50,392 nucleotides of DNA from Chloroflexota bacterium (lineage in GTDB: Bacteria; Chloroflexota; Chloroflexia; Chloroflexales; Chloroflexaceae): positions 1 to 50,392 of the forward strand of contig JAUQOZ010000022.1 of NCBI GenBank assembly GCA_030550625.1, in the 5' to 3' direction. Under the pieces are notes generated by a model. It searched no databases and was not told the DNA's origin. It saw only the letters and a program-made list of their open reading frames with translations. Position numbers and translations under genes: made by a program. Below are positions 4,849-16,272 of the stretch, piece after piece (position 1 is the first letter of the stretch; each line of letters begins with the position of its first letter).

Positions 4849-5904
4849 ATGTCCCATCTCATCGATGCCATTCTAACCGGTCTCGGTAATATTGGCCGCA
4901 CATTCCTCGAAATGTTGGTTACTGATCCCGACCGGCTGCCCCGCCGTTACGGCTTTGGCCTCCGCATTGTCGGCGTCGCCGACTCGAGCGGCGTGGCGTT
5001 TGATCCCGGCGGTCTCGATCTCCCGGCAATTATTGATGTCAAACGGCGCAAGTTGGGGGTGGCGGCCTTGCCGTCGTTTCGCCCTGATCTCGATGTGATC
5101 ACGCTGGCCGAAACCGCTGCGTATGATCTGTTGCTGGAAGCTACCCCGACCAACCTCCGCGATGGTCAGCCCGGCCTCGATATTGTGCGAGCGGCTTTGC
5201 GCCGCGGCAAGCCAGCGGTATTAGCGAGCAAAGGGCCGTTGGTGCTGGCGTTTGCCGAGTTAGCTGCGCTAAGCGATTGGGCCGACGACCTTTCGCCCCG
5301 CAGCCCCCGCCCGGCCTTGCGTTTCTCTGGCGCGGTAGGCGGCGCTTTACCCACCATTAATTTTGGCCGGCGCGATTTGGCCGGCGCCCAGATCGAACGC
5401 GCCGAGCTAGTTGTTAATGGTACCACGCAGGTCATCCTCGAACAGATGGCCGCCGGCGCTGATTTTACCACCGCACTGGCTGAAGCTCAACGGCAGGGCA
5501 TCGTCGAACCCGATCCCTCGCTCGATGTCGATGGCTGGGACGCCGCCAACAAGCTGGTGATCTTCGCCAACGCCGTGCTCGGCCAGCCCACAACGCTGGC
5601 CGATGTGACAGTACGCGGGATTCGTGACGTCACGGCTGCCGAACTAGCCGCAGCATGGCAGGCTGGCGGTCGCATCTCGCTGGTTGCCCGCGCCGAGCGC
5701 CAGCCTGATGGGCGTTACGCCTTATCGGTAGCCCCCGCTGTTCTTGGCCCCGCACACCCGCTGGCCCGGTTAGCCCACGGCGAAATGGGTTTCGTGATCT
5801 ATAGCGATAGCGCCGGGCGCTCGACGATCAGCAGCCTCGAAGATGGCCCTTTAGGGACGTGCCAAGCCATGCTACGCGATCTGATCGAGATTGTGCGCCG
5901 CTAA
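4849..5904 (+). CDS. hom: Homoserine dehydrogenase
   Basis: 351 residues, starting at the ATG at 4849 behind GGAG (4840-4843). The frame is open further upstream, but that part is not protein-like. The enzyme reduces aspartate semialdehyde to homoserine with NAD(P)H, the branch step towards threonine and methionine. Visible marks are the N-terminal Rossmann loop (LTGLGNIGRTFLEML), the LEATPTN and ASKGPLVL segments that contact cofactor and substrate, SGAVGGALPTI, and the family signature around DGWDAANKLVIFANAVLG with the catalytic lysine. There is no C-terminal ACT domain, so feedback control by threonine through that route is not expected. It is monocistronic between the MshEN-repeat gene (divergent) and the LuxR regulator (convergent). 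Confidence 0.92.
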   Translation: MSHLIDAILTGLGNIGRTFLEMLVTDPDRLPRRYGFGLRIVGVADSSGVAFDPGGLDLPAIIDVKRRKLGVAALPSFRPDLDVITLAETAAYDLLLEATPTNLRDGQPGLDIVRAALRRGKPAVLASKGPLVLAFAELAALSDWADDLSPRSPRPALRFSGAVGGALPTINFGRRDLAGAQIERAELVVNGTTQVILEQMAAGADFTTALAEAQRQGIVEPDPSLDVDGWDAANKLVIFANAVLGQPTTLADVTVRGIRDVTAAELAAAWQAGGRISLVARAERQPDGRYALSVAPAVLGPAHPLARLAHGEMGFVIYSDSAGRSTISSLEDGPLGTCQAMLRDLIEIVRR

Positions 5905-5984
5905 GAGCCATCGGACACGGATTGCCACGGATTGAACCGTTTCCTTCCGTTCTTGCCTCTATGGTTCAGATGCGCCCTCCATCA

Positions 5985-8741
5985 TTACGGTATCAACCCT
6001 AGTCGCCTCCCGCGCGCTACCGCTTGCGTGCGCGAGGCGACCCCCAGCTTGCTGAAAATATTGTTGATATGCGATTTAACAGTACTGAGCGCGATGACCA
6101 AACTCGCAGCGATCTCGTGATTGCTGCGCCCTTCCGCCATCAGGCGCAACACCTCTATCTCACGTTGGCTTAAAGGTTCAGGCAGTGCAGTGGAAGACGC
6201 CGGCGAATTGGTCGGCGTTGCCAGCGGCAACTCCTCATCATCAAACAACGAGAGCACATACTCGCCATAGGGCGGCAACTGTTGGCGAGCTGAGAGTTGG
6301 GCGAGTATGCTGCGCAACGGTTCGCCAGCTTGGTAAAAGGGTTCAACAATCCGCTCGCTCGTCGCTAGATCAAGCGCGGCTAACATCGCCTCGCTACTAT
6401 CGGCGCCAGCGGAGGCCAGCGCGATCCCGCGCAACAAAGCAACATCAAGCGGCGCCAATATCTGCCAGATATCACCCTGCAACGGCTTAGCTAATTCGTC
6501 TGCCAACGCGCGCAAGGCTTCACCATCGCCAGCAGCGCGCGCGCTGGCCAGCCGCCATTCATAGCGCGCACGAGTGATATGCTCGCGGGCATAGTAAGCC
6601 GCTACCGGCATGTAGCGAAATTCTACCGGCTTGAGCAATCGATCATCGAGCAGTTGGCCGGCAGCTTCGAGTTCGCCCCGCGCAATCAGAATCTGTGCTT
6701 CGAGACCATCAAGCACGGCGAGCACCCAATGCACTTTCCGCTGGCGGGCCAAAAACCGCGCCTGCCGGATCACGCGCAATGCGCCTTCGACATCGCCACG
6801 CGCGCGCGCAATGCGTGCGGTCACAATCAACAGGTTGAGATAACTCGTGGTTTGGCCAGATTTTATGGCGCTCTCGGCTTCAGCCAACGCTGGCAATGCG
6901 CCAGCAAATTCATGGCGTAATCCATGCAGATCGGCCAACGCTAAAAATGGCAACCCGATGCCGGGTTGCGTGCGGCTGCGATTGCGCCGTAACATCTGAT
7001 TGATCGTATCACGGCAAGCGTTAATCGCCGCTCCAATTGCGCTGCGCAGAGTCAGGGTATAGGCGTAATCAACGGTCGCCATCGCCGAAATGTATGGCAA
7101 GCCAGCGTTAAATCCGTTGATACTCGCCTCGCTGAAGGCTTGCTCGGCGCGTGACACGTCTCCCTGCGCGATGCATGCGTAACCTAAATCCTTCGCCACC
7201 CGCATGCGCAACGCCTGATGATCAGCCTGCAACCACGCTAATGCCTGTTTCCCTTCGTGAATCACCTGCTCGGTGTCTCCTTGCAAAACCGCCAATCGCA
7301 CCCGCACAGCACTCAATTCACCGCGCAAATTAGCAATGATCCCAATCGGCGTTGCTGCGCCGCTGGCCACCCCAGCTAGCGCCCGCTCGGCGACGGCGAT
7401 CCAGTGGGCCGCATCTTCTACTTGATAATCGGCTGCCGCTAGCCATGCGCGCAACAACGCTAACCGCGGGTGCCGGTCAAACGCTTCGTCAGGGATTTCC
7501 GGCAGCCAACGCCGGAGCGTTGCTTCGCCCACTTGCGAAATAAACGCTAATCCAATCGGCTCCAGCATCGCTACTACATCATCAATCGCCCGCGCGCGCA
7601 AGGCGTGGTTGACAGCTTGCGTCAGCATGCCGTGGGCCGCGTACCATGCCCCGGCCCGCCGGTGGAGCATGGCGACATGCTCAGCGCTGCTGCCCGCCTC
7701 AAGTCGATCGCGTAACACATCAGCAAACAAATGGTGATACCGATACCAGACCCGCTCGGCATCGAGCGGAAAGAGAAACAAATTGTTGCGCTCGATTTCG
7801 GCCAGCACCAACTGGCTGTACGACTGGTTGCTCTTGCCATTCTCACTCTGCTCGTGAACGCCAATCACCGCATCGCAGAGCGGCCCGCACAACCGGTCAA
7901 GGATCGAGGTTTGCAGCAGGAATTGTTGCAAGTGCGCCGGTAACTGGTTAAAGACATCCTCGATTAAATAATCAACCACATACCGGTTGCTGGCAATCAA
8001 TTCATCAACCAATTCATCCTGATGCGGACGATTCCGCAGCGCCAGCGCCGCCAGATGCAAACCGGCCGGCCAGCCCTCGGTGCTCTCTAACAAGGCCACA
8101 ATCTGTTCCCGGCTGAGTGATAACTCCATCGATTCCAGCAAAAAGGCAGCCGCCTCTTCGGGATTAAAGGCCAAATCAAAACTACGTAGCTCAGCTAGAT
8201 GCCCGCGCGCCCGCCAGCGGGCCAACGGCAATGGCGGATCGCTGCGGGTGGCGATAATTAACCGGCACCGAGGGGGAAGGTGATCAACCAAGAATGCGAT
8301 CGCTTTATGGATCAGCGCATCGCTAATGAGATGATAGTCATCGAGCACTATCACCGTTGGCCCAGCTATCTCAGCCAAATCATTTAACAGCTCGGCAAAC
8401 CACTGTTCAGCGTCAAGATCGGTTTCCGCTCCCATCAGTGCGCGTAATCGCTCACGGCGTTCGTTTGGCAAATTACTCAATGCTTCCAACAGATAAGCTA
8501 GCAGCCGGCGCAGATCATTGTCTGTCGTATCGAGGCTGAGCCAAGCAATGTGTGCCCAATCTTTGCGCGCTTCGGCCATCCACTCAACCAAGAGTGACGT
8601 TTTGCCATAGCCGGCCGGAGCAGTAATCAAGACCAGCCGGCTATGCAAGGCGGCGCGCAGCCGTTCGTGCAAGCGAGGTCGCGCCAATAGCGATGGCTGC
8701 GTTTCAGGTGGATGCAATTTGGTGCGCACTAGCGGAATCAT
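5985..8741 (-). CDS. MalT-like (LAL/STAND) LuxR-family transcriptional activator
   Basis: 918 residues, typical of large ATP-binding LuxR regulators. Residues 1-25 carry the LVRTKLHPP / LLARPRLHERL start common to MalT relatives. Walker A is at about 41-49 (APAGYGKTS) and Walker B is TVIVLDDYHLI near 127. A long helical, TPR-like sensor region fills the middle (about 350-830). The last 65 residues are a LuxR helix-turn-helix (PLSQREIEVLRLMAEGRSNHE, then STVKSHINNIFSKLGV). Such proteins switch on ATP and ligand binding and activate transcription. It is transcribed divergently from the sugar importer operon at 9036 across a 294-base gap with two palindromes, so it is a plausible regulator of that operon. 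The ligand is not known. Confidence 0.9.
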   Translation of the reverse strand: MIPLVRTKLHPPETQPSLLARPRLHERLRAALHSRLVLITAPAGYGKTSLLVEWMAEARKDWAHIAWLSLDTTDNDLRRLLAYLLEALSNLPNERRERLRALMGAETDLDAEQWFAELLNDLAEIAGPTVIVLDDYHLISDALIHKAIAFLVDHLPPRCRLIIATRSDPPLPLARWRARGHLAELRSFDLAFNPEEAAAFLLESMELSLSREQIVALLESTEGWPAGLHLAALALRNRPHQDELVDELIASNRYVVDYLIEDVFNQLPAHLQQFLLQTSILDRLCGPLCDAVIGVHEQSENGKSNQSYSQLVLAEIERNNLFLFPLDAERVWYRYHHLFADVLRDRLEAGSSAEHVAMLHRRAGAWYAAHGMLTQAVNHALRARAIDDVVAMLEPIGLAFISQVGEATLRRWLPEIPDEAFDRHPRLALLRAWLAAADYQVEDAAHWIAVAERALAGVASGAATPIGIIANLRGELSAVRVRLAVLQGDTEQVIHEGKQALAWLQADHQALRMRVAKDLGYACIAQGDVSRAEQAFSEASINGFNAGLPYISAMATVDYAYTLTLRSAIGAAINACRDTINQMLRRNRSRTQPGIGLPFLALADLHGLRHEFAGALPALAEAESAIKSGQTTSYLNLLIVTARIARARGDVEGALRVIRQARFLARQRKVHWVLAVLDGLEAQILIARGELEAAGQLLDDRLLKPVEFRYMPVAAYYAREHITRARYEWRLASARAAGDGEALRALADELAKPLQGDIWQILAPLDVALLRGIALASAGADSSEAMLAALDLATSERIVEPFYQAGEPLRSILAQLSARQQLPPYGEYVLSLFDDEELPLATPTNSPASSTALPEPLSQREIEVLRLMAEGRSNHEIAASLVIALSTVKSHINNIFSKLGVASRTQAVARGRRLGLIP

Positions 8742-9035
8742 GCGCCATCTCCGAGTGGTGGTGTGGTTGGTTGCTTGGTCGCTGTGTTATGTAGTCTACC
8801 ACAGGCGATGGCAGTATGGGGTATGGTTAGGGGAAATCCCCTAATTCTTGAGTAGGAGTAACTCCCTAGTGTCTTTCAGGGTAGCCGGGATAGGCAAAGC
8901 CGGTGCCGTGTGGTTCAATAGCGCCATCAGGATCGTTGTTGCCATACCCACAAGGAGGTGTACCCGGCAGCGAAAGTTCCCTGCAATGACGTGGTTCGCA
9001 ATGGTGTAGCTTTGCCGTGTTCAAGGAGGACTGTG
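8742..9035. promoter_or_regulatory. Divergent control region between MalT-like regulator and sugar importer
   Basis: A 294-base non-coding interval. It holds an 18-base palindrome at 8827-8844 (8-bp arms TTAGGGGA / TCCCCTAA around AA). Nine bases further on is a second, smaller symmetrical site at 8853-8868 (core GGAGT-A-ACTCC, 8855-8865). Both share a TAGG..CCTA outline, as expected for a dimeric regulator with adjacent operators. The binding protein is unknown; candidates are the MalT-like protein and the REC-LuxR-REC regulator. A strong ribosome binding site AGGAGG lies at 9024-9030 for the binding-protein gene. I could not fix a convincing -35/-10 pair. Confidence 0.55.
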
Positions 9036-10199
9036 ATGTCGAAGAAGACTTTGTGGTTCGTATTGTCGTTGTTGACGGCGTTTACCTTTTTGTTGAGCGC
9101 TTGCGGCGGTGGCGGCAGCACCGGCGGCAGCACCGGCGGCAGCACTGGTGGCAATACCGGTGGCAGCACCGGCGGTAGCCAGCAACTCGCGGTCGGAATC
9201 GTCCTTCCCACTAAAGATGAACCCCGCTGGATCCAAGACGAGACCCGCTTCCGCGAGGCGTTGCAGCAGGCTGGCTATCAGGTTGAAATCCTCTTCAGCC
9301 AAGGTTCGTCGGCCAAAGAGAAAGAGAATGTCGAGGCGCTGCTCGCCAAGGGCATTAAAGTGTTAATCATCTGCCCCCACGATGGCACCGCCGCCGCTGC
9401 GGCTGCCGCCGCTGCCCGCGCCGCCGGCGTCAAGGTCATCTCCTACGACCGCCTGATTCGCGAGACCGACGCCGTTGATTATTATGTCACCTTTGACAGC
9501 ATCGCCGTGGGTGCGCAGCAGGCCCAGTATCTGGTTGATAACGCCAGCGGCAGCGGTAATCCGCTCTACCTCTACGCTGGCGCTGCCTCTGACAACAATG
9601 CTTTCCTCTTCTTTGAAGGCGCGTGGAAGGTGCTCCAACCCAAGATCGCCGATGGCACCTTCGTGATTAAGAATTCGAGCGAGGCTGTCGCGTTGCAGAA
9701 CAAGCTTGATCTCACCCGCGACGAGATGGCCAAGATCCTCGGCCAGATCACGACCAACTGGGATTTCAACACCGCCAAGAATCTTGCTGAGGCGAACCTC
9801 ACCGCCGCGACCGCCGCCGATAAGGGCAAGGTCTACATCCTCGCCCCCAACGATGGCACCGCCCGCGCGATCGCCGATGCCTTCGCCGCCGATAAGGATG
9901 TGACCCAGTACTTCGTGACCGGCCAAGATGCCGAAAAGGCGTCGGTGCAGTACATCATCGATGGTCGCCAGTCAATGACCGTCTTCAAAGATGTGCGCAC
10001 GCTGGTGAAGGATGCGATTAGCGCCGCGGTCGCTCTGCTTGAAAACAAGCAGCCCGAGTCGCGCGGCTCCTACAACAACGGCAAGATCGACGTGCCTGCC
10101 ATCCAGTCGCCGGTTGTGACCGTCACCCGCGACAATGTGCGCGCCGCTCTGATCGACTCTGGCTACTACAGCGCCAGCGACTTCACTAACCTGCCATAA
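9036..10199 (+). CDS. chvE: ChvE-like monosaccharide ABC transporter binding lipoprotein
   Basis: 387 residues from the ATG at 9036, chosen for AGGAGG seven bases upstream and because a signal peptide follows at once. A lipoprotein signal (MSKKTLWFVLSLLTAFTFLLSAC) ends in a lipobox. Next comes a low-complexity GGSTGG linker of about 30 residues that would hold the domain away from the membrane. The mature part matches the periplasmic-binding-protein type 1 fold of ChvE: VGIVLPTKDEPRWIQDE, ISYDRLIRETDAVDYYVTFD, SDNNAFLFFEGA, VTGQDAEKASVQYI and TVFKDVRTL. ChvE binds galactose, glucose, arabinose and related sugars and works with GguA/GguB. It is the first gene of the importer operon, with a hairpin after its stop that could keep its transcript in excess. 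Confidence 0.9.
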   Translation: MSKKTLWFVLSLLTAFTFLLSACGGGGSTGGSTGGSTGGNTGGSTGGSQQLAVGIVLPTKDEPRWIQDETRFREALQQAGYQVEILFSQGSSAKEKENVEALLAKGIKVLIICPHDGTAAAAAAAAARAAGVKVISYDRLIRETDAVDYYVTFDSIAVGAQQAQYLVDNASGSGNPLYLYAGAASDNNAFLFFEGAWKVLQPKIADGTFVIKNSSEAVALQNKLDLTRDEMAKILGQITTNWDFNTAKNLAEANLTAATAADKGKVYILAPNDGTARAIADAFAADKDVTQYFVTGQDAEKASVQYIIDGRQSMTVFKDVRTLVKDAISAAVALLENKQPESRGSYNNGKIDVPAIQSPVVTVTRDNVRAALIDSGYYSASDFTNLP

Positions 10200-10250: not shown

Positions 10251-10421
10251 TAGAGGCCACAGATACCCTCTCATTTTCTATGTTGGCAATCGTTCCTACT
10301 CACTCCGAGGAACTATCCAGCGTGTTGGTGTGATTGCGCCATCATACTTGTGCATAGAAATGGAATATGCGGTATAGTTTTCACCATCCCGGTATTCCCC
10401 AACAATGAGGCGGTGCGTGTT

Positions 10422-11945
10422 ATGGAAATCCCTATTCTTGAAATGCGCCAGATTACTAAAGAATTCCCCGGTGTACGCGCGCTCGATAACGTCACCTTTA
10501 GCGTCAAGCGCGGCGAGATCCACTGTCTGGTCGGTGAAAATGGCGCTGGTAAGTCAACCCTGATGAAGGTGCTGAGCGGTGTGTATCCGTATGGCTCCTA
10601 CAGCGGCGAAATCTTGATCGATGGTCAGCCCCAACGCTTTTTTGGCATCGCCGATAGCGAACGAGTCGGCATCGGGATTATCTATCAAGAATTAGCCCTC
10701 GTGCCCGAGTTGACCGTCTACGAAAACATCTTTCTTGGTCACGAAATTAGTCGCAACGGCGTGATCGATTGGAACGAAACCATTCGCCGCGCCGATGAGA
10801 TGCTGCGCAAAGTGCGTTTAGATGTCAATCCCGCCGCTAAAATCCGCGATCTCGGCGTCGGCAAGCAGCAATTGGTCGAAATTGCCAAGGCGCTGAGCCG
10901 CGAAGTCAAGATTCTGATTCTCGATGAACCTACCGCCGCCCTCAACGAAAACGACAGCGAGAATTTACTGAATCTGTTACGTGAATTGCGCGATCATGGC
11001 GTAACCTGCATTCTGATTTCACACAAGCTGAAAGAGGTGTTGTCGGTCGCCGATACCGTGACTGTCCTCCGCGACGGCAAGACGGTCTGCACCCTCGATG
11101 CCCACAAAGGTGAGGTGAGCGAGCAGGCGCTCATCCGCAATATGGTCGGGCGCGAGATTGCCAATATCTATCCCCCTCGCAACCATCAGATCAGTGATGA
11201 GGTGATGCTGGAATTGCGGAACTGGACGGTCTATTCGCCTGAGTTGGGCCGCTACTTGCTGCGCGATGTCAATCTACAGGTGCGCAAGGGCGAGATCGTC
11301 GGGCTAGCCGGCTTGATGGGGGCTGGCCGTACCGAGCTGGCCCTCAGCCTGTTCGGCAATGCGCCCGGTTACCGGATCAGCGGCGAGCTGTGGCTGAAGG
11401 GCCGCAAGCGCGCGTTCCGCCATCCTCGCGAAGCGATCGCCGCTGGTTTGGCCTACGTTTCTGAAGACCGCAAAGCTAAAGGGCTGGTCTTGATCCAAGA
11501 TGTGCGCCAAAATATTACCCTCGCCAACCTGCAAGCGTTAGCTCAAAATGGCGTCATTAACCGCAATGCCGAGATTCAGGTCGCCGAAGGATATCGCAAG
11601 TCGCTCAACATCAAAACGCCAACCATCGAACAACAAGTCGTTAACCTGAGCGGCGGCAACCAGCAGAAAGTGTGTCTCGGCAAATGGCTGTTTGTGCGGC
11701 CCGACGTGCTCATCCTTGACGAGCCGACCCGCGGGATCGATGTTGGCGCGAAATACGAAATCTATCAGTTGATGAACCGGCTGGTTGAAGAGGGGATGAG
11801 CATCATCATGATCTCGTCGGAATTGCCTGAAGTGTTGGGTATGAGCGACCGGATCTACGTCGTCTCTGGCGGGAGAATTAAAGGTGAACTGCCGGTTGCG
11901 GCAGCCACCCAAGAAAAGATTATGGAGCTGGCAGTTGACTACTAA
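10422..11945 (+). CDS. gguA: Monosaccharide ABC transporter ATPase (GguA-like, two ABC domains)
   Basis: 507 residues, the usual size of a CUT2-class ATPase with two fused ABC domains. Domain 1 is complete: Walker A 38-45 (GENGAGKS), Q-loop IIYQE, signature LGVGKQQ at 144-150, Walker B LILDEP (165-170) and the H-loop histidine at 201. Domain 2 has a degenerate Walker A (GLMGAGRTEL), a canonical LSGGNQQK signature and LILDEPTRGIDVG; this asymmetry is normal for the class. It powers sugar uptake with the permease that follows. The start at 10422 (MEIPILEMRQI) is preferred; a GTG at 10413 lies closer to the GAGG at 10407-10410. The next gene begins 28 bases after its stop. Confidence 0.92.
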   Translation: MEIPILEMRQITKEFPGVRALDNVTFSVKRGEIHCLVGENGAGKSTLMKVLSGVYPYGSYSGEILIDGQPQRFFGIADSERVGIGIIYQELALVPELTVYENIFLGHEISRNGVIDWNETIRRADEMLRKVRLDVNPAAKIRDLGVGKQQLVEIAKALSREVKILILDEPTAALNENDSENLLNLLRELRDHGVTCILISHKLKEVLSVADTVTVLRDGKTVCTLDAHKGEVSEQALIRNMVGREIANIYPPRNHQISDEVMLELRNWTVYSPELGRYLLRDVNLQVRKGEIVGLAGLMGAGRTELALSLFGNAPGYRISGELWLKGRKRAFRHPREAIAAGLAYVSEDRKAKGLVLIQDVRQNITLANLQALAQNGVINRNAEIQVAEGYRKSLNIKTPTIEQQVVNLSGGNQQKVCLGKWLFVRPDVLILDEPTRGIDVGAKYEIYQLMNRLVEEGMSIIMISSELPEVLGMSDRIYVVSGGRIKGELPVAAATQEKIMELAVDY

Positions 11946-11973
11946 CCGAATACGCAGCGCGGCGGAGGAGACC

Positions 11974-13173
11974 ATGACGACACAAGCAACCTTTGTTACC
12001 AACTTACAACGGACGCTAGGGCAGAATATCCGCCAATACGGCATGTTCATCGCCCTCTTCGTTATTATGATCATCTTTTCCATCACCACTAACGGCATTT
12101 TTATCTCGTCACGCAACCTCAGCAATTTGATCAACCAGACTGGCTATATTGCGGTGCTGGCGGTCGGCATGACGTTGGTGATCGTGATTCGCCATATTGA
12201 TCTCTCGGTTGGCTTTTTGGCCGGTTTCCTCGGCGCAGTCGCCGCGATTGCCCTCCGCTTCTGGGAGCTGCCGACGATTGTGGTGGTGCCGATGGTGCTG
12301 GTTCTCGGCGGGTTGGCCGGCTTGCTAACGGCGTTTCCGGTTGCTGAATTGAAGATCCCCTCGTTTGTCGCTTCACTGGCCGGCTGGCTCATTTATCGCG
12401 GCGCCTTGCAATTGGTCACCGCCGGCACCGGTACGATTATTATCGAAGATGAGACCTTCAACGCGATTGGCAATGGCTTTATTCCCGATGTGCCGTTTAG
12501 CATTGTGCCCGGCTACCACACCCTCACCCTTCTCCTCGGCGTGCTCGCCATCGTTGCCTTCATCATCAGCGAAATCCGCAGCCGCAACAAGAAACTTGCC
12601 TACAATTTCGAGGTCTTGCCCACTGATATGTTTTTGCTCAAGCTGATCTTTATCTCAACCTTGATCGGCTTGCTGGCATGGATTATGGCCGGCTACAACG
12701 GCCTCTCGTGGACGATGGTGATCGTGTTGGCGGTAGTGGCGATTTACCACTTCATTACCACCCAAACCGTGCTGGGCCGGCATATTTATGCGGTTGGCGG
12801 CAACCCCGAAGCGGCTGAGCTAAGCGGCATCAGCGTCAAGCGCATTACCTATATTGTCTTCGCGTCAATGGGAGTGCTCTCGGCCTTGTCGGGCATCTTG
12901 TTCGCTTCGCGGTTACGCTCGGCCACCACCACCGCCGGCACCCTGTTTGAGCTTGACGCGATCGCTGCGGCGTATATTGGCGGTGTGTCCGCCGCTGGCG
13001 GCGTCGGCAATGTGATCGGTTCGATCATCGGAGCGCTGGTGTATGTGTCGTTGACCAGCGGTATGAACCTGATGGGCATTGATATTGCCTACCAATACAT
13101 CGTGCGCGGTTTGGTATTGGTCGCCGCCGTGGTGTTCGACGTGACCACCCGCCGCCGTGGCCGCGCTGGTTGA
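11974..13173 (+). CDS. gguB: Monosaccharide ABC transporter permease (GguB-like)
   Basis: 399 residues from the ATG at 11974, behind GGAGGAG. This is the length of GguB/XylH-class permeases. About ten hydrophobic segments are visible, and the family motif VGMTLVIVIRHIDLSVGFLA lies near residue 65. The cytoplasmic EAA-like loop that contacts the ATPase reads GGNPEAAELSGISVKRI. A second conserved glycine-rich stretch, AIAAAYIGGVSAAGGVGNV, follows. It forms the homodimeric transmembrane channel for sugars delivered by the ChvE-like lipoprotein. It ends the importer operon, and a large palindrome lies 20 bases downstream. Confidence 0.92.
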   Translation: MTTQATFVTNLQRTLGQNIRQYGMFIALFVIMIIFSITTNGIFISSRNLSNLINQTGYIAVLAVGMTLVIVIRHIDLSVGFLAGFLGAVAAIALRFWELPTIVVVPMVLVLGGLAGLLTAFPVAELKIPSFVASLAGWLIYRGALQLVTAGTGTIIIEDETFNAIGNGFIPDVPFSIVPGYHTLTLLLGVLAIVAFIISEIRSRNKKLAYNFEVLPTDMFLLKLIFISTLIGLLAWIMAGYNGLSWTMVIVLAVVAIYHFITTQTVLGRHIYAVGGNPEAAELSGISVKRITYIVFASMGVLSALSGILFASRLRSATTTAGTLFELDAIAAAYIGGVSAAGGVGNVIGSIIGALVYVSLTSGMNLMGIDIAYQYIVRGLVLVAAVVFDVTTRRRGRAG

Positions 13174-13229: not shown

Positions 13230-13382
13230 CCCGCGGACGCGCGGGGGCCCGCGCCGTTCCGCCCCCCCGCGCCGTTCCGCCCTCACGTCCGCCCATTTGC
13301 CCCCAGCCGTCTCTTCGGCGATAATAATCTGTATCCCTTGGCGTCATCACGCCGGTACGTCAACCATGGTGGGGAATGGGCG

Positions 13383-14441
13383 ATGGGAACAACCCGCGTC
13401 GTATTGGCCGATGATCATGCCGTTGTGCGGGCTGGTTTGCGCACTGCGCTGGCCGGCTTGCCTGACTTTGAGGTGGTCGGTGAGGCGGCCACCGGCCCGC
13501 AACTATTCGCCGCGCTAGCCCAGCATCACCCCGATCTGCTGGTGGTCGATGTGGCCATGCCGGAATTTGATCCGATTAACGCCATCCGCCAGATTCACGC
13601 CGACTATCCGGCCATGAAGATTTTGGTCGTCAGCGCCTACGATGATCAATCTTACGTCGTTGGCCTACTCGCCGCTGGCGTCAATGGCTACCACCTCAAA
13701 GACCAACCGCTCAGCGATCTGCAATTAGCCGTGCAACGGATTATGGCCGGCGGCAACTGGATCTCGAGCCCACTCCTCAGCCGTCTCATCCAAGCGGCGC
13801 CCCAGTTGGCGCACCCGTCGCTGATCAGCCTCACCAAACGCCAGCGTGACCTCCTCCGTCTCATTGCCCAAGGTTACGACAACCGCCGCATGGCCCAAGA
13901 GATGGATCTGAGTGTCAAGACGATCGAGAATCACTTGACCGCCCTCTACCGCGCCATCCGCGTGAGCAGCCGTCTTGAAGCCTACCAGTTCGCGTTGCGC
14001 CATCCCGAATTGCTGGCCGAATCGGGCCATGAAGCGGCCCAAAACCGCGAACCGCCCGCCGGCCCGGCCCCGCTGACAGTGCTCATCATCGACGACAACG
14101 AACGCTACCGCGCCCAACTCAAGCGCATGGTCGGCAAGGCCTGCGCCGAAGCCCAGCTCTACGAAGCCGAAGATTGCCATGCAGCAACTCACTTGCTCCG
14201 CCAAATCACGCCGGATCTAGCTTTCATTGATGTGATTTTGAACGATGGCGATGGGATTCAATGCCTGCGCCGGGTGAAAAGTATTGCTCCCAACATCCGG
14301 GCGATCTTGATCAGCGCCTACCCTGACCGCGAGTTTCGCCGGTTGGGGTTGGAAGCCGGCGCGCTGGCTTTTCTCGACAAAAAAGACCTCGATGCGGCCA
14401 CCGTACGGCAGGTGGTAGAGGATGCATTGCGGCGGAAGTGA
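13383..14441 (+). CDS. Response regulator with REC-LuxR-REC architecture
   Basis: 352 residues from the ATG at 13383; an earlier ATG at 13338 in frame would add 15 unconserved residues. Receiver 1 spans about 5-120, with acidic pair D10-D11, phosphoacceptor D56 in LLVVDVAMP, S84 and K106. A NarL/LuxR helix-turn-helix spans about 148-205 (SLTKRQRDLLRLIAQGYDN, then VKTIENHLTALYRAI). After an alanine/proline linker, a second full receiver spans 230-350, with D237-D238, D283 in LAFIDVILND, S311 and lysines at 333-334. Both receivers keep every residue needed for phosphorylation. A receiver placed after the DNA-binding domain is unusual for the NarL group. It lies between the sugar importer and the ABC-domain histidine kinase, its likely partner. 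Confidence 0.9.
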   Translation: MGTTRVVLADDHAVVRAGLRTALAGLPDFEVVGEAATGPQLFAALAQHHPDLLVVDVAMPEFDPINAIRQIHADYPAMKILVVSAYDDQSYVVGLLAAGVNGYHLKDQPLSDLQLAVQRIMAGGNWISSPLLSRLIQAAPQLAHPSLISLTKRQRDLLRLIAQGYDNRRMAQEMDLSVKTIENHLTALYRAIRVSSRLEAYQFALRHPELLAESGHEAAQNREPPAGPAPLTVLIIDDNERYRAQLKRMVGKACAEAQLYEAEDCHAATHLLRQITPDLAFIDVILNDGDGIQCLRRVKSIAPNIRAILISAYPDREFRRLGLEAGALAFLDKKDLDAATVRQVVEDALRRK

Positions 14442-14589: not shown

Positions 14590-16179
14590 TCACCCCACTC
14601 CCACCCCTTCCGCCGGGAACGGAGCTGGATTGGGAATCTCGATCTGCAATTCCAACCCGCCCCACACTGATGGCCCAATCTGCAATGTACCGCGCAAGAG
14701 CGACACCCGCTCGCTGATTCCAATCAAGCCAAAATGCTTCCGTTCCGCGAGGCGTTGCAGATCGGGCGGCGTCGTCATTCCCCTCCCGTTATCGGCCAAC
14801 CGCACCATCACCCCCGCTGCCGAGGTGCGCCGCACCTCAAGCAACACCCGTGTAGCGCCGGCGTGCTTGCGCACGTTGTTCAAGCCCTCTTGCACAATCC
14901 GAAACACCGCCAATTCAATCGTCTCCGGCCAGCGTTCCAACGGCTCGGCCAACAGCAACTCGACCTGAATTCCGGTCTGCTCGCTCCACTGGCTCGCCAA
15001 CGAACGCAACGCCGCCGCCAAGCCATGGCTGTCGAGCGTGGGCGGGCGCAGATCGCTGCACATCTGGCGCAACATCGCCACCACCTCGCGAATCCCGCGC
15101 CGGATGGTTTGCAACTCGCTCAACGCTTCCCCTTGCTCGATCTCCTCTTCGACATGTTCGAGCTGGTAGTTGAAACTGAGCAAATCTTGGATGACCTGAT
15201 CGTGCAATTCGCGCGCCAACGCCTTCCGCTCGGCCTCGCGTTCGAGCATGAGACGGTGATGGGCCTCTTGCAAGGCCTGATTGAGTTGATCGAGCGCCAC
15301 CATTTGCTCTTGCAGCCGTTGCACCAGTTCGCGGTTGAGCGAGTCTTGCGCGGCGAGGTTGTCTTGCAGTTGCAGTTGCTGTTGCCGTAACTGTTCCGCT
15401 TGTTGCTGCGCCTGATAGTAATTCTCAAAGGCCCAAATCAACGGCGTGACCCGCTCTTGCCGCACCGACCCCACCATCAGCTCGACGATCTCGCGCGGCG
15501 TCGTGCTGGCAGTGGCGCGCAACGCCGCTTGCCGGCCTTGGTACAGCACCAGCACCCGGTTGGTGATGGCAAAGATGAGATTGAGGTCGTCGCTGCTGAG
15601 AATAATGCCGGCCTGTGCCGCCGCCAGCTCGCGTAAGTGTTGCAAGACGGCCTGCTGGCGAGCAAAACTCAACGCCGAGAGCGACTCGTCGAGGATCAGC
15701 AGCCGGGCTGGCCGCACAAAGGCCCGGATCAACGCCACCAACTGCCGCTCCTCTTCGGTCAGATCGCCGGCGCGTTGGTGGGCAAGGTTGGGCGGCAAAC
15801 CAAACCGCTCGAGCCACTGGTACGCCGTGGTCGCCATTGCCGCCGGATCGAGCCGCCGTTTGCCCAGTTCACGCCCTAAAAAGATATTATCAAGCACCGG
15901 CATCACTTCGACCAGCGGCGGCGCTGGCGGCACAAACTCGATCCCGCGCCGCTGCGCCGCTTGCCCTGCCCATGTCAAGGGAAGACCATCGACCTGTATC
16001 TCACCCGCTGTAGGCGGATAGATCCCGGCCAGCGCCTGCAAGAGCACCGACTTGCCGGCGCTGCGCAAACCTACCACCCCCAAGATGTCACCGGGGCGCA
16101 GCTCAAAACTGATCCCGCTGAGGATCGGCTTGGCGGCAAAGACGATGTGCAGCTCGCGCACGCTGAGCAAGGGTAGCAT
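14590..16179 (-). CDS. ABC-ATPase domain fused to a NarL-type histidine kinase
   Basis: 529 residues from the ATG at 16179; the frame is open to 16248, but that stretch contains promoter-like TATAAT sequence. Residues 1-240 form one ABC domain most like the first half of a CUT2 sugar ATPase, ending EIVELMVGS as those do. Walker A (37-44, GLRSAGKS) and Walker B with glutamate (LLILDES, 160-166) are intact. The Q-loop glutamine is missing (FVPPAPP, 82-88), the signature is LTEEE (140-144) and the H-loop histidine is D197. A glutamine-rich coiled coil (about 253-315) leads to a HisKA_3 domain with H326 (ARELHDQVIQDLL). An HATPase_c domain follows, with N434-N435, D463-G467 and GLIGISERV. It has no membrane segment. 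It is probably a nucleotide- or permease-linked sensor for the neighbouring importer and phosphorylates the REC-LuxR-REC protein; this role is inferred. Confidence 0.9.
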   Translation of the reverse strand: MLPLLSVRELHIVFAAKPILSGISFELRPGDILGVVGLRSAGKSVLLQALAGIYPPTAGEIQVDGLPLTWAGQAAQRRGIEFVPPAPPLVEVMPVLDNIFLGRELGKRRLDPAAMATTAYQWLERFGLPPNLAHQRAGDLTEEERQLVALIRAFVRPARLLILDESLSALSFARQQAVLQHLRELAAAQAGIILSSDDLNLIFAITNRVLVLYQGRQAALRATASTTPREIVELMVGSVRQERVTPLIWAFENYYQAQQQAEQLRQQQLQLQDNLAAQDSLNRELVQRLQEQMVALDQLNQALQEAHHRLMLEREAERKALARELHDQVIQDLLSFNYQLEHVEEEIEQGEALSELQTIRRGIREVVAMLRQMCSDLRPPTLDSHGLAAALRSLASQWSEQTGIQVELLLAEPLERWPETIELAVFRIVQEGLNNVRKHAGATRVLLEVRRTSAAGVMVRLADNGRGMTTPPDLQRLAERKHFGLIGISERVSLLRGTLQIGPSVWGGLELQIEIPNPAPFPAEGVGVG

Positions 16180-16229
16180 AGCTGTGGCCGTCGTTCTCAC
16201 CCGTGTAATATTCTGGCAATCGTGATCGT

Positions 16230-16235
16230 TATAAT
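16230..16235 (+). promoter_or_regulatory. Candidate -10 element for the PIN-like gene
   Basis: TATAAT lies 38 bases before the ATG at 16273, in the divergent interval with the ABC-kinase gene. The -35 region at about 17 bases upstream is weak. Confidence 0.4.
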
Positions 16236-16272
16236 CCAAGTATAGCATTCACGCCAACAAGGAAACGTGTTC

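Follow-up and report, generated by a model that had tools for sequence, protein, structure and literature searches.

A histidine kinase fused to an importer-type ABC cassette in Chloroflexota: a candidate receptor for control of an adjacent sugar importer

What does a cassette of the kind that powers sugar uptake do at the head of a soluble histidine kinase? The question is raised by one gene in the window, the whole stretch of 50,392 nucleotides that was analysed, from a Chloroflexus genome, C. islandicus being the nearest named relative at 96%. No description of an ABC-kinase fusion was found in the literature, which was searched largely outside subscription journals, and we found no described case of an importer ATPase that had itself turned into a kinase input domain. 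On balance we favour the reading that the fusion belongs to a catalytically dead ABC importer that may serve as a receptor and control the adjacent sugar importer.

The gene was placed on the minus strand, the plus strand of the same interval being interrupted by stops; the preliminary description had given the right position, 14590-16179, and left out the strand. The longest open reading frame covers 14590-16248 (-), begins with an upstream ATG at 16248 and encodes 552 aa, and since the relatives align from Met24, 16179 is the likelier start. The features of the locus are as follows.

8828..8843, no strand: palindrome TAGGGGAAATCCCCTA, putative operator; no other exact TAGGGGN4CCCCTA occurs in the 4.74-Mb genome
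8853..8868, no strand: degenerate second copy of the palindrome, TAGGAGTAACTCCCTA, 25 bp downstream of the first
8958..10199, plus: ChvE-like sugar-binding protein (Pfam, NCBIfam)
10350..11945, plus: GguA-like dual-NBD transport ATPase, the importer's own ATPase (Pfam, NCBIfam)
11884..13173, plus: GguB-like sugar permease, BPD_transp_2 (Pfam, NCBIfam)
13338..14441, plus: REC-LuxR-REC response regulator, probable cognate (domains; orthologue co-occurrence)
14590..16179, minus: ABC-histidine kinase fusion gene, 529 aa from Met24
14632..14916, minus: HATPase_c, kinase ATP-binding domain (Pfam)
15034..15231, minus: HisKA_3, dimerisation and phosphoacceptor domain with invariant phospho-His residue 326
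15241..15459, minus: Gln-rich linker or coil, helix unbroken into the H-box, starting at the invariant P246/W249 (TPxIWA)
15460..16179, minus: ABC domain, residues 1-240 (Pfam ABC_tran; motif columns over 35 relatives; model)
15589-15591, minus: H-loop position of the ABC domain, Asp in the window's protein
15748-15762, minus: signature of the ABC domain, LTEEE
15925-15927, minus: Q-loop position of the ABC domain, Pro in the window's protein
16048-16071, minus: Walker A of the ABC domain, GLRSAGKS

Pfam domains were assigned on the 552-aa frame as ABC_tran (residues 43-189, E 9.5e-22, 78.5 bits against a cut-off of 25), HisKA_3 (residues 340-405, E 6.1e-14) and HATPase_c (residues 445-539, E 4.9e-6), the last two also above their cut-offs. 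The AlphaFold model, for which the input was a 14-row alignment, gives a complete and confident ABC fold (core pLDDT about 90), one continuous helix over residues 241-345 and then the DHp and CA domains of the kinase; the PDB structures that match, along residues 1-255 and with Z as high as 29.6, are ABC ATPases. Domains and model agree with the architecture claimed earlier, an ABC domain followed by a glutamine-rich coil and a complete HisKA_3/HATPase_c kinase, and no membrane or extracytoplasmic domain was found in either. Directly after the ABC domain lies a TPxIWA-like motif (residues 245-252, about 15424-15447) with P246 and W249 present in 35/35 proteins, which is perhaps a hinge between cassette and helix.

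The fusion is convergent with the REC-LuxR-REC regulator, which comes after an importer of the ChvE-GguA-GguB type. The neighbours agree with the preliminary description and are ChvE-, GguA- and GguB-like proteins and the regulator, the NCBIfam matches of the three importer proteins falling below the curated cut-offs.

Cassette motifs and distribution of the family

Motifs were counted over 35 aligned fusion proteins, the window's protein included. In the window's protein Walker A (GLRSAGKS) and Walker B (LLILDE) are intact, the Q-loop Gln is replaced by Pro, the signature reads LTEEE and the H-loop His is Asp. Over the whole family the Walker A residues G37, G42, K43 and S44 and the Walker B D164 are each found in 35/35, the catalytic E165 in 31/35 (Asp in three, Gln in one). 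The signature LSxG has become LSxE, with Glu in place of Gly at the fourth residue in 35/35, and the H-loop His is missing in 35/35, its place being taken by D, Q, S, N, G or K. The Q-loop Gln is kept in 33/35, the exceptions being the Pro of the window's protein and a Glu in L045, so its loss is no family feature and is particular to the window's species. In the kinase half His326 and the N-box Asn435 are invariant. The earlier observations on the Walker motifs, signature and H-loop hold family-wide, that on the Q-loop for the window's protein and not as a family trait; canonical signature and H-loop motifs, which the preliminary description had thought could turn up in homologues and count against it, are retained in none of the 35 members.

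From the invariant ATP-binding residues together with the invariant loss of the signature Gly and the H-loop His we infer a cassette that would bind ATP without productive hydrolysis. The non-hydrolysing sensor proposed earlier survives in kind, as the cassette is the sole input domain of a soluble kinase and in every member the binding residues are kept and the hydrolysis residues lost; GguB as its general partner does not. The H-loop His is kept in the conventional single-NBD cassettes and in NBD1 of the same or related loci, and those single-NBD cassettes keep an LSGGQ-type signature too; NBD2 of the dual ATPases is without the His and the Gln, yet retains LSGGN. In a tree of 52 cassettes the fusion ABC domains form one clade (support 100/99) on the side of NBD1 and the single NBDs, apart from NBD2, and the Chloroflexus/f11 clade is the most diverged among them. 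An origin from a degenerate CUT2 NBD2, also without His and Gln, was ruled out by this tree and by the intact Walker A GKS.

The full-length fusion was found in 36 genomes, all of Chloroflexota and belonging to seven families (22/251 and 26/400 Chloroflexota genomes, and 29/158 in the window's class, in overlapping surveys that give 36 together). With the fusion present in 36 genomes, a chance fusion, a frameshift or a misassembly was ruled out; it is no assembly artefact. No genome examined showed the two halves as separate proteins, the case that the preliminary description had set against its own reading. With the family profile the full-length fusion was absent from 299 Bacillota, 299 Pseudomonadota and 146 genomes of a cyanobacterium's phylum; two of the profile searches outside Chloroflexota held no positive genome, the same profile scoring Chloroflexota members at about 600-880 bits. 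The matches listed in one such search were ABC-only or kinase-only, none of full length occurred on the plasmids searched, and the survey outside Chloroflexota left out Actinomycetota chromosomes. Judging from the sequences, the fusion is an old family of single origin.

Gene order at the fusion loci

Importer genes are linked to the fusion at 28 of the 36 loci, while six are unlinked and two lie on short contigs; a lack of linkage to importers, the remaining objection foreseen in the preliminary description, was thus not what was seen. The layout differs between genera. In the eight Chloroflexus genomes the fusion stands alone, in convergent orientation to the importer and the regulator. Families f39 and f2/g7, g236 have a binding protein, a single-NBD ATPase, a permease and the fusion in this order, with the regulator divergent (L045, L056, L145), and in f43/g115 the regulator adjoins the fusion, both being divergent from the importer (L057, L119). 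Family f11 shows the fusion with the regulator and a ChvE-like gene (L043, L044), and six genomes of f2/g6 carry a lone fusion with no linked transporter, the regulator being elsewhere in the genome. At L057 an open reading frame at 5444-7630 (-) encodes a ChvE-like binding protein of 728 aa that scores above a single-domain protein and has the look of a tandem duplication.

In 14 genomes the fusion is the last gene of a tandem on one strand, permease2 - binding protein 2 (SBP2) - ABC-kinase. Permease2 is a full BPD_transp_2 protein, SBP2 is a full Peripla_BP_4 protein, and because the trio comes without any other ATPase the fusion fills the ATPase slot of an importer. The order was read first at L046, L047, L048, L050, L054 and L118, with gaps mostly small or overlapping, and it recurred in 8 of 10 loci fetched after the hypothesis had been formed (L140-L144, L146-L148; some of these trios show frame breaks in draft contigs). 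The other two were a single-NBD importer with fusion and regulator (L145) and the Chloroflexus layout (L149). In the 26 fusion genomes searched, permease2 orthologues above 500 bits occur in exactly the six whose order was read first, and in every one at the fusion locus; the next match, of 328 bits, comes from a conventional importer that has a 508-aa ATPase of its own. SBP2 orthologues above 400 bits lie at the fusion locus in the five of those six genomes that were searched, the SBP2 of L118 being known from reading the locus. The coupling loop of a permease contacts the ABC cassette in ABC importers. In permease2 this loop is altered and usually reads GRDERA or GNNERA, where the conventional CUT2 permeases used for comparison usually have GGNxEA.

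Conventional importers with a similar binding protein and permease but their own dual ATPase were seen at L123, in a genome of the Bacillota set, and at L124, in the same genome as L046. At L123 (6810-9839) the binding protein (L086:233-1336) resembles SBP2 with 485 bits and the permease resembles permease2 with 329 bits; this importer is a possible relative of the source of the trio.

No permease2 orthologue was found in the genomes searched of Chloroflexus (seven) and f11 (three), where no permease2 or SBP2 is linked to the fusion either, so a membrane partner named there is a guess. As dedicated SBP2 and permease2 elsewhere in Chloroflexus the best matches (about 75-84 bits for the binding protein, about 261-268 bits for the permease) were rejected; they are mutually adjacent genes, and the thresholds were reached in 3/7 genomes only.

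An apparent fossil of the trio lies at L150 (G024:C472) 6155-7307. In this genome the ChvE-GguA-GguB importer, the palindrome and the regulator are kept and SBP2 is gone, while downstream no more than remnants persist of permease2 (residues 91-197 and 223-336) and of the kinase (residues 441-526, a C-terminal stretch of 86 residues). The pattern of decay in this one draft genome suggests that the trio was lost as a unit.

Regulator and palindrome

One orthologue of the REC-LuxR-REC protein per genome was present in 22/22 fusion genomes tested and none in three relatives without the fusion; G024 keeps the regulator without an intact fusion. The protein is the probable cognate regulator of the fusion kinase, which would pass its phosphoryl group to it. 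Where the kinase is unlinked (f2/g6), the regulator still stands divergent from a sugar-binding protein gene at the two loci read (L135, L136), the importer there being binding protein - single NBD - permease. In two genomes (G061, G246) a separate contig carries the regulator, away from the importer.

When the region upstream of ChvE was aligned in Chloroflexus, a conserved and often doubled palindrome was found. A scan for perfect inverted repeats with 7-base arms missed most sites, and an arm-based scan was therefore used. Over 33 loci (597 kb) it gave 14 sites in which neither arm has a mismatch (gap 4-6), where shuffled sequence gave 0. All 14 stand no more than 500 bp in front of an importer, regulator, permease2 or MalT gene, and so do 15 one-mismatch sites, about 6 being expected anywhere. 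One of the 14, at L118:19175, is made of G and C in its core and looks like a repeat that is dispersed in its genome. An exact copy is missing from some fusion genomes, of which several carry versions with one or two mismatches or a gap of 5. Across families the same palindrome stands before importers of the dual-NBD as well as the single-NBD kind; it thus goes with the regulator and not with the type of transporter, and the REC-LuxR-REC protein would be expected to bind TAGGGG-N4-CCCCTA. The GC-core copies of TAGGGGN4CCCCTA in G604 (about 114, mostly CTGG/CCAG) appear to be a dispersed repeat and were discounted as support for an operator.

A MalT-like LuxR regulator (AAA_16, TPR_MalT, GerE) at 5985-8741 (-) of the window is divergent from the importer and also flanks the palindrome, which makes it a second candidate binder in Chloroflexus; in no other genus examined was it found next to the importer. 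The reversed pattern ATCCCCNNNNGGGGAT has 91-275 copies in the Chloroflexus genomes G118, G1004, G134 and G238 and 0 in the window's genome, and may represent a dispersed repeat or CRISPR repeats.

Proposed mechanism, alternatives and related systems

In the mechanism that we propose, the ABC cassette, once the ATPase of an importer, would bind ATP without productive hydrolysis and serve as kinase input. The lipoprotein SBP2 would take up a sugar or sugar-like ligand and dock on permease2, whose coupling loops would shift the dimeric ABC domains, and the movement would reach the kinase along the continuous helix. Phosphorylated by the kinase, the REC-LuxR-REC regulator would bind TAGGGG-N4-CCCCTA and control the neighbouring sugar importer, so that an importer-like receptor would signal the cell when to make the real importer. 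In Chloroflexus, without a dedicated permease2 and SBP2, the fusion would most likely listen to the adjacent GguB permease. What the sequences show is the fusion, its motif pattern and single origin, the order of the trio, the linkage of regulator and importer and the conserved palindrome; docking, signalling direction and ligand we infer, as well as the phosphotransfer to this regulator and its binding to the palindrome. Whether the fusion also founds a new class of receptor, a whole ABC importer with its pseudo-ATPase fused to a histidine kinase and its conformational change used only for signalling, we regard as an even question.

The nearest alternative, which we hold possible though the less likely account, lets the fusion dock on the working importer (GguB, perhaps paired with GguA) and report transport flux. 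In all eight Chloroflexus genomes the fusion stands beside a GguA-GguB importer and a dedicated permease is absent, and it follows or adjoins a complete importer in f2, f39 and f43 (L056, L145, L045, L057, L119). It is opposed by the 14 genomes in which a permease and a binding protein are supplied separately, nearly always next to a full importer, and as the importer's own ATPase is intact the fusion would need to compete for the same docking site. The docking on GguB in place of GguA suggested earlier is accordingly possible by default in Chloroflexus only, most other genera carrying the dedicated pair. That the ABC domain is instead a soluble sensor of ATP/ADP, of energy, with no need of a permease, is unlikely: the invariant Walker A and Walker B Asp (35/35), the missing membrane segment and the lone kinase gene of f2/g6 would suit it, but the trio and its loss as a unit in G024, as well as the importer-specific regulator and palindrome, are left unexplained.

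The fusion takes the place of the ATPase in a complete set of importer genes and keeps the catalytic Glu in 31/35 and the Q-loop Gln in 33/35, which could also mean a working transport ATPase of permease2 with a kinase tail, transporting and signalling at once. We think this quite improbable, since every member has lost the signature Gly (to Glu) and the H-loop His, residues that the conventional single-NBD relatives keep, and a homodimer would have both sites defective. There is very little to be said for the ABC domain as a decaying passenger of a kinase that is regulated by something else; the ABC half does evolve faster than the kinase half (36% against 53% identity to L046), but neither its nucleotide-binding residues nor its fold nor the Glu substitution varies between families.

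Borrowed transporters are already known from several bacterial sensors. If the receptor reading is true, conformational signalling from an ABC transporter to a kinase becomes simply testable, in a system with a permease and a binding protein dedicated to it, one covalent link, only one regulator and a short palindrome as DNA site, and the fusion system would be a modular scaffold for sugar biosensors. Among transporters its closest likeness is to the CUT2-type importers (ChvE-GguAB, RbsABC, FrcBCA), with whose NBD1 and single-NBD cassettes the fusion ABC domain groups and like which it has a full-length permease and binding protein in permease2 and SBP2; it differs in an ATPase that bears a kinase and is without the signature Gly and H-loop His, and in a trio without other ATPase.

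Kinases of the UhpC-UhpB, DctA-DcuS, PstSCAB-PhoR and BceAB-BceS type have a membrane part of their own. In these transporter-coupled histidine kinases (PMC5703999, PMC11109136) a kinase in control of genes for transport or resistance likewise takes its information from a transporter or a homologue of one, but the kinase is separate and bound non-covalently to the transporter, whereas here it is fused to the cassette in the position of the ATPase. In the three-component systems XylFII-LytS and CuaD-CuaS-CuaR (PMC10384115), too, a two-component system in control of a sugar ABC importer is accompanied by an additional binding protein. That protein makes contact with an extracytoplasmic domain of the kinase, the defining trait of such systems, whereas the fusion kinase is soluble, has no such domain and would need to be reached by relay through a permease. 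In the transporter-kinase 'transceptor' CbrA (PMC13022988) transporter part and histidine kinase share one polypeptide as in the fusion, but the fused part of CbrA is a membrane transporter domain, whereas here it is a cytoplasmic ABC ATPase and the membrane part is a separate gene.
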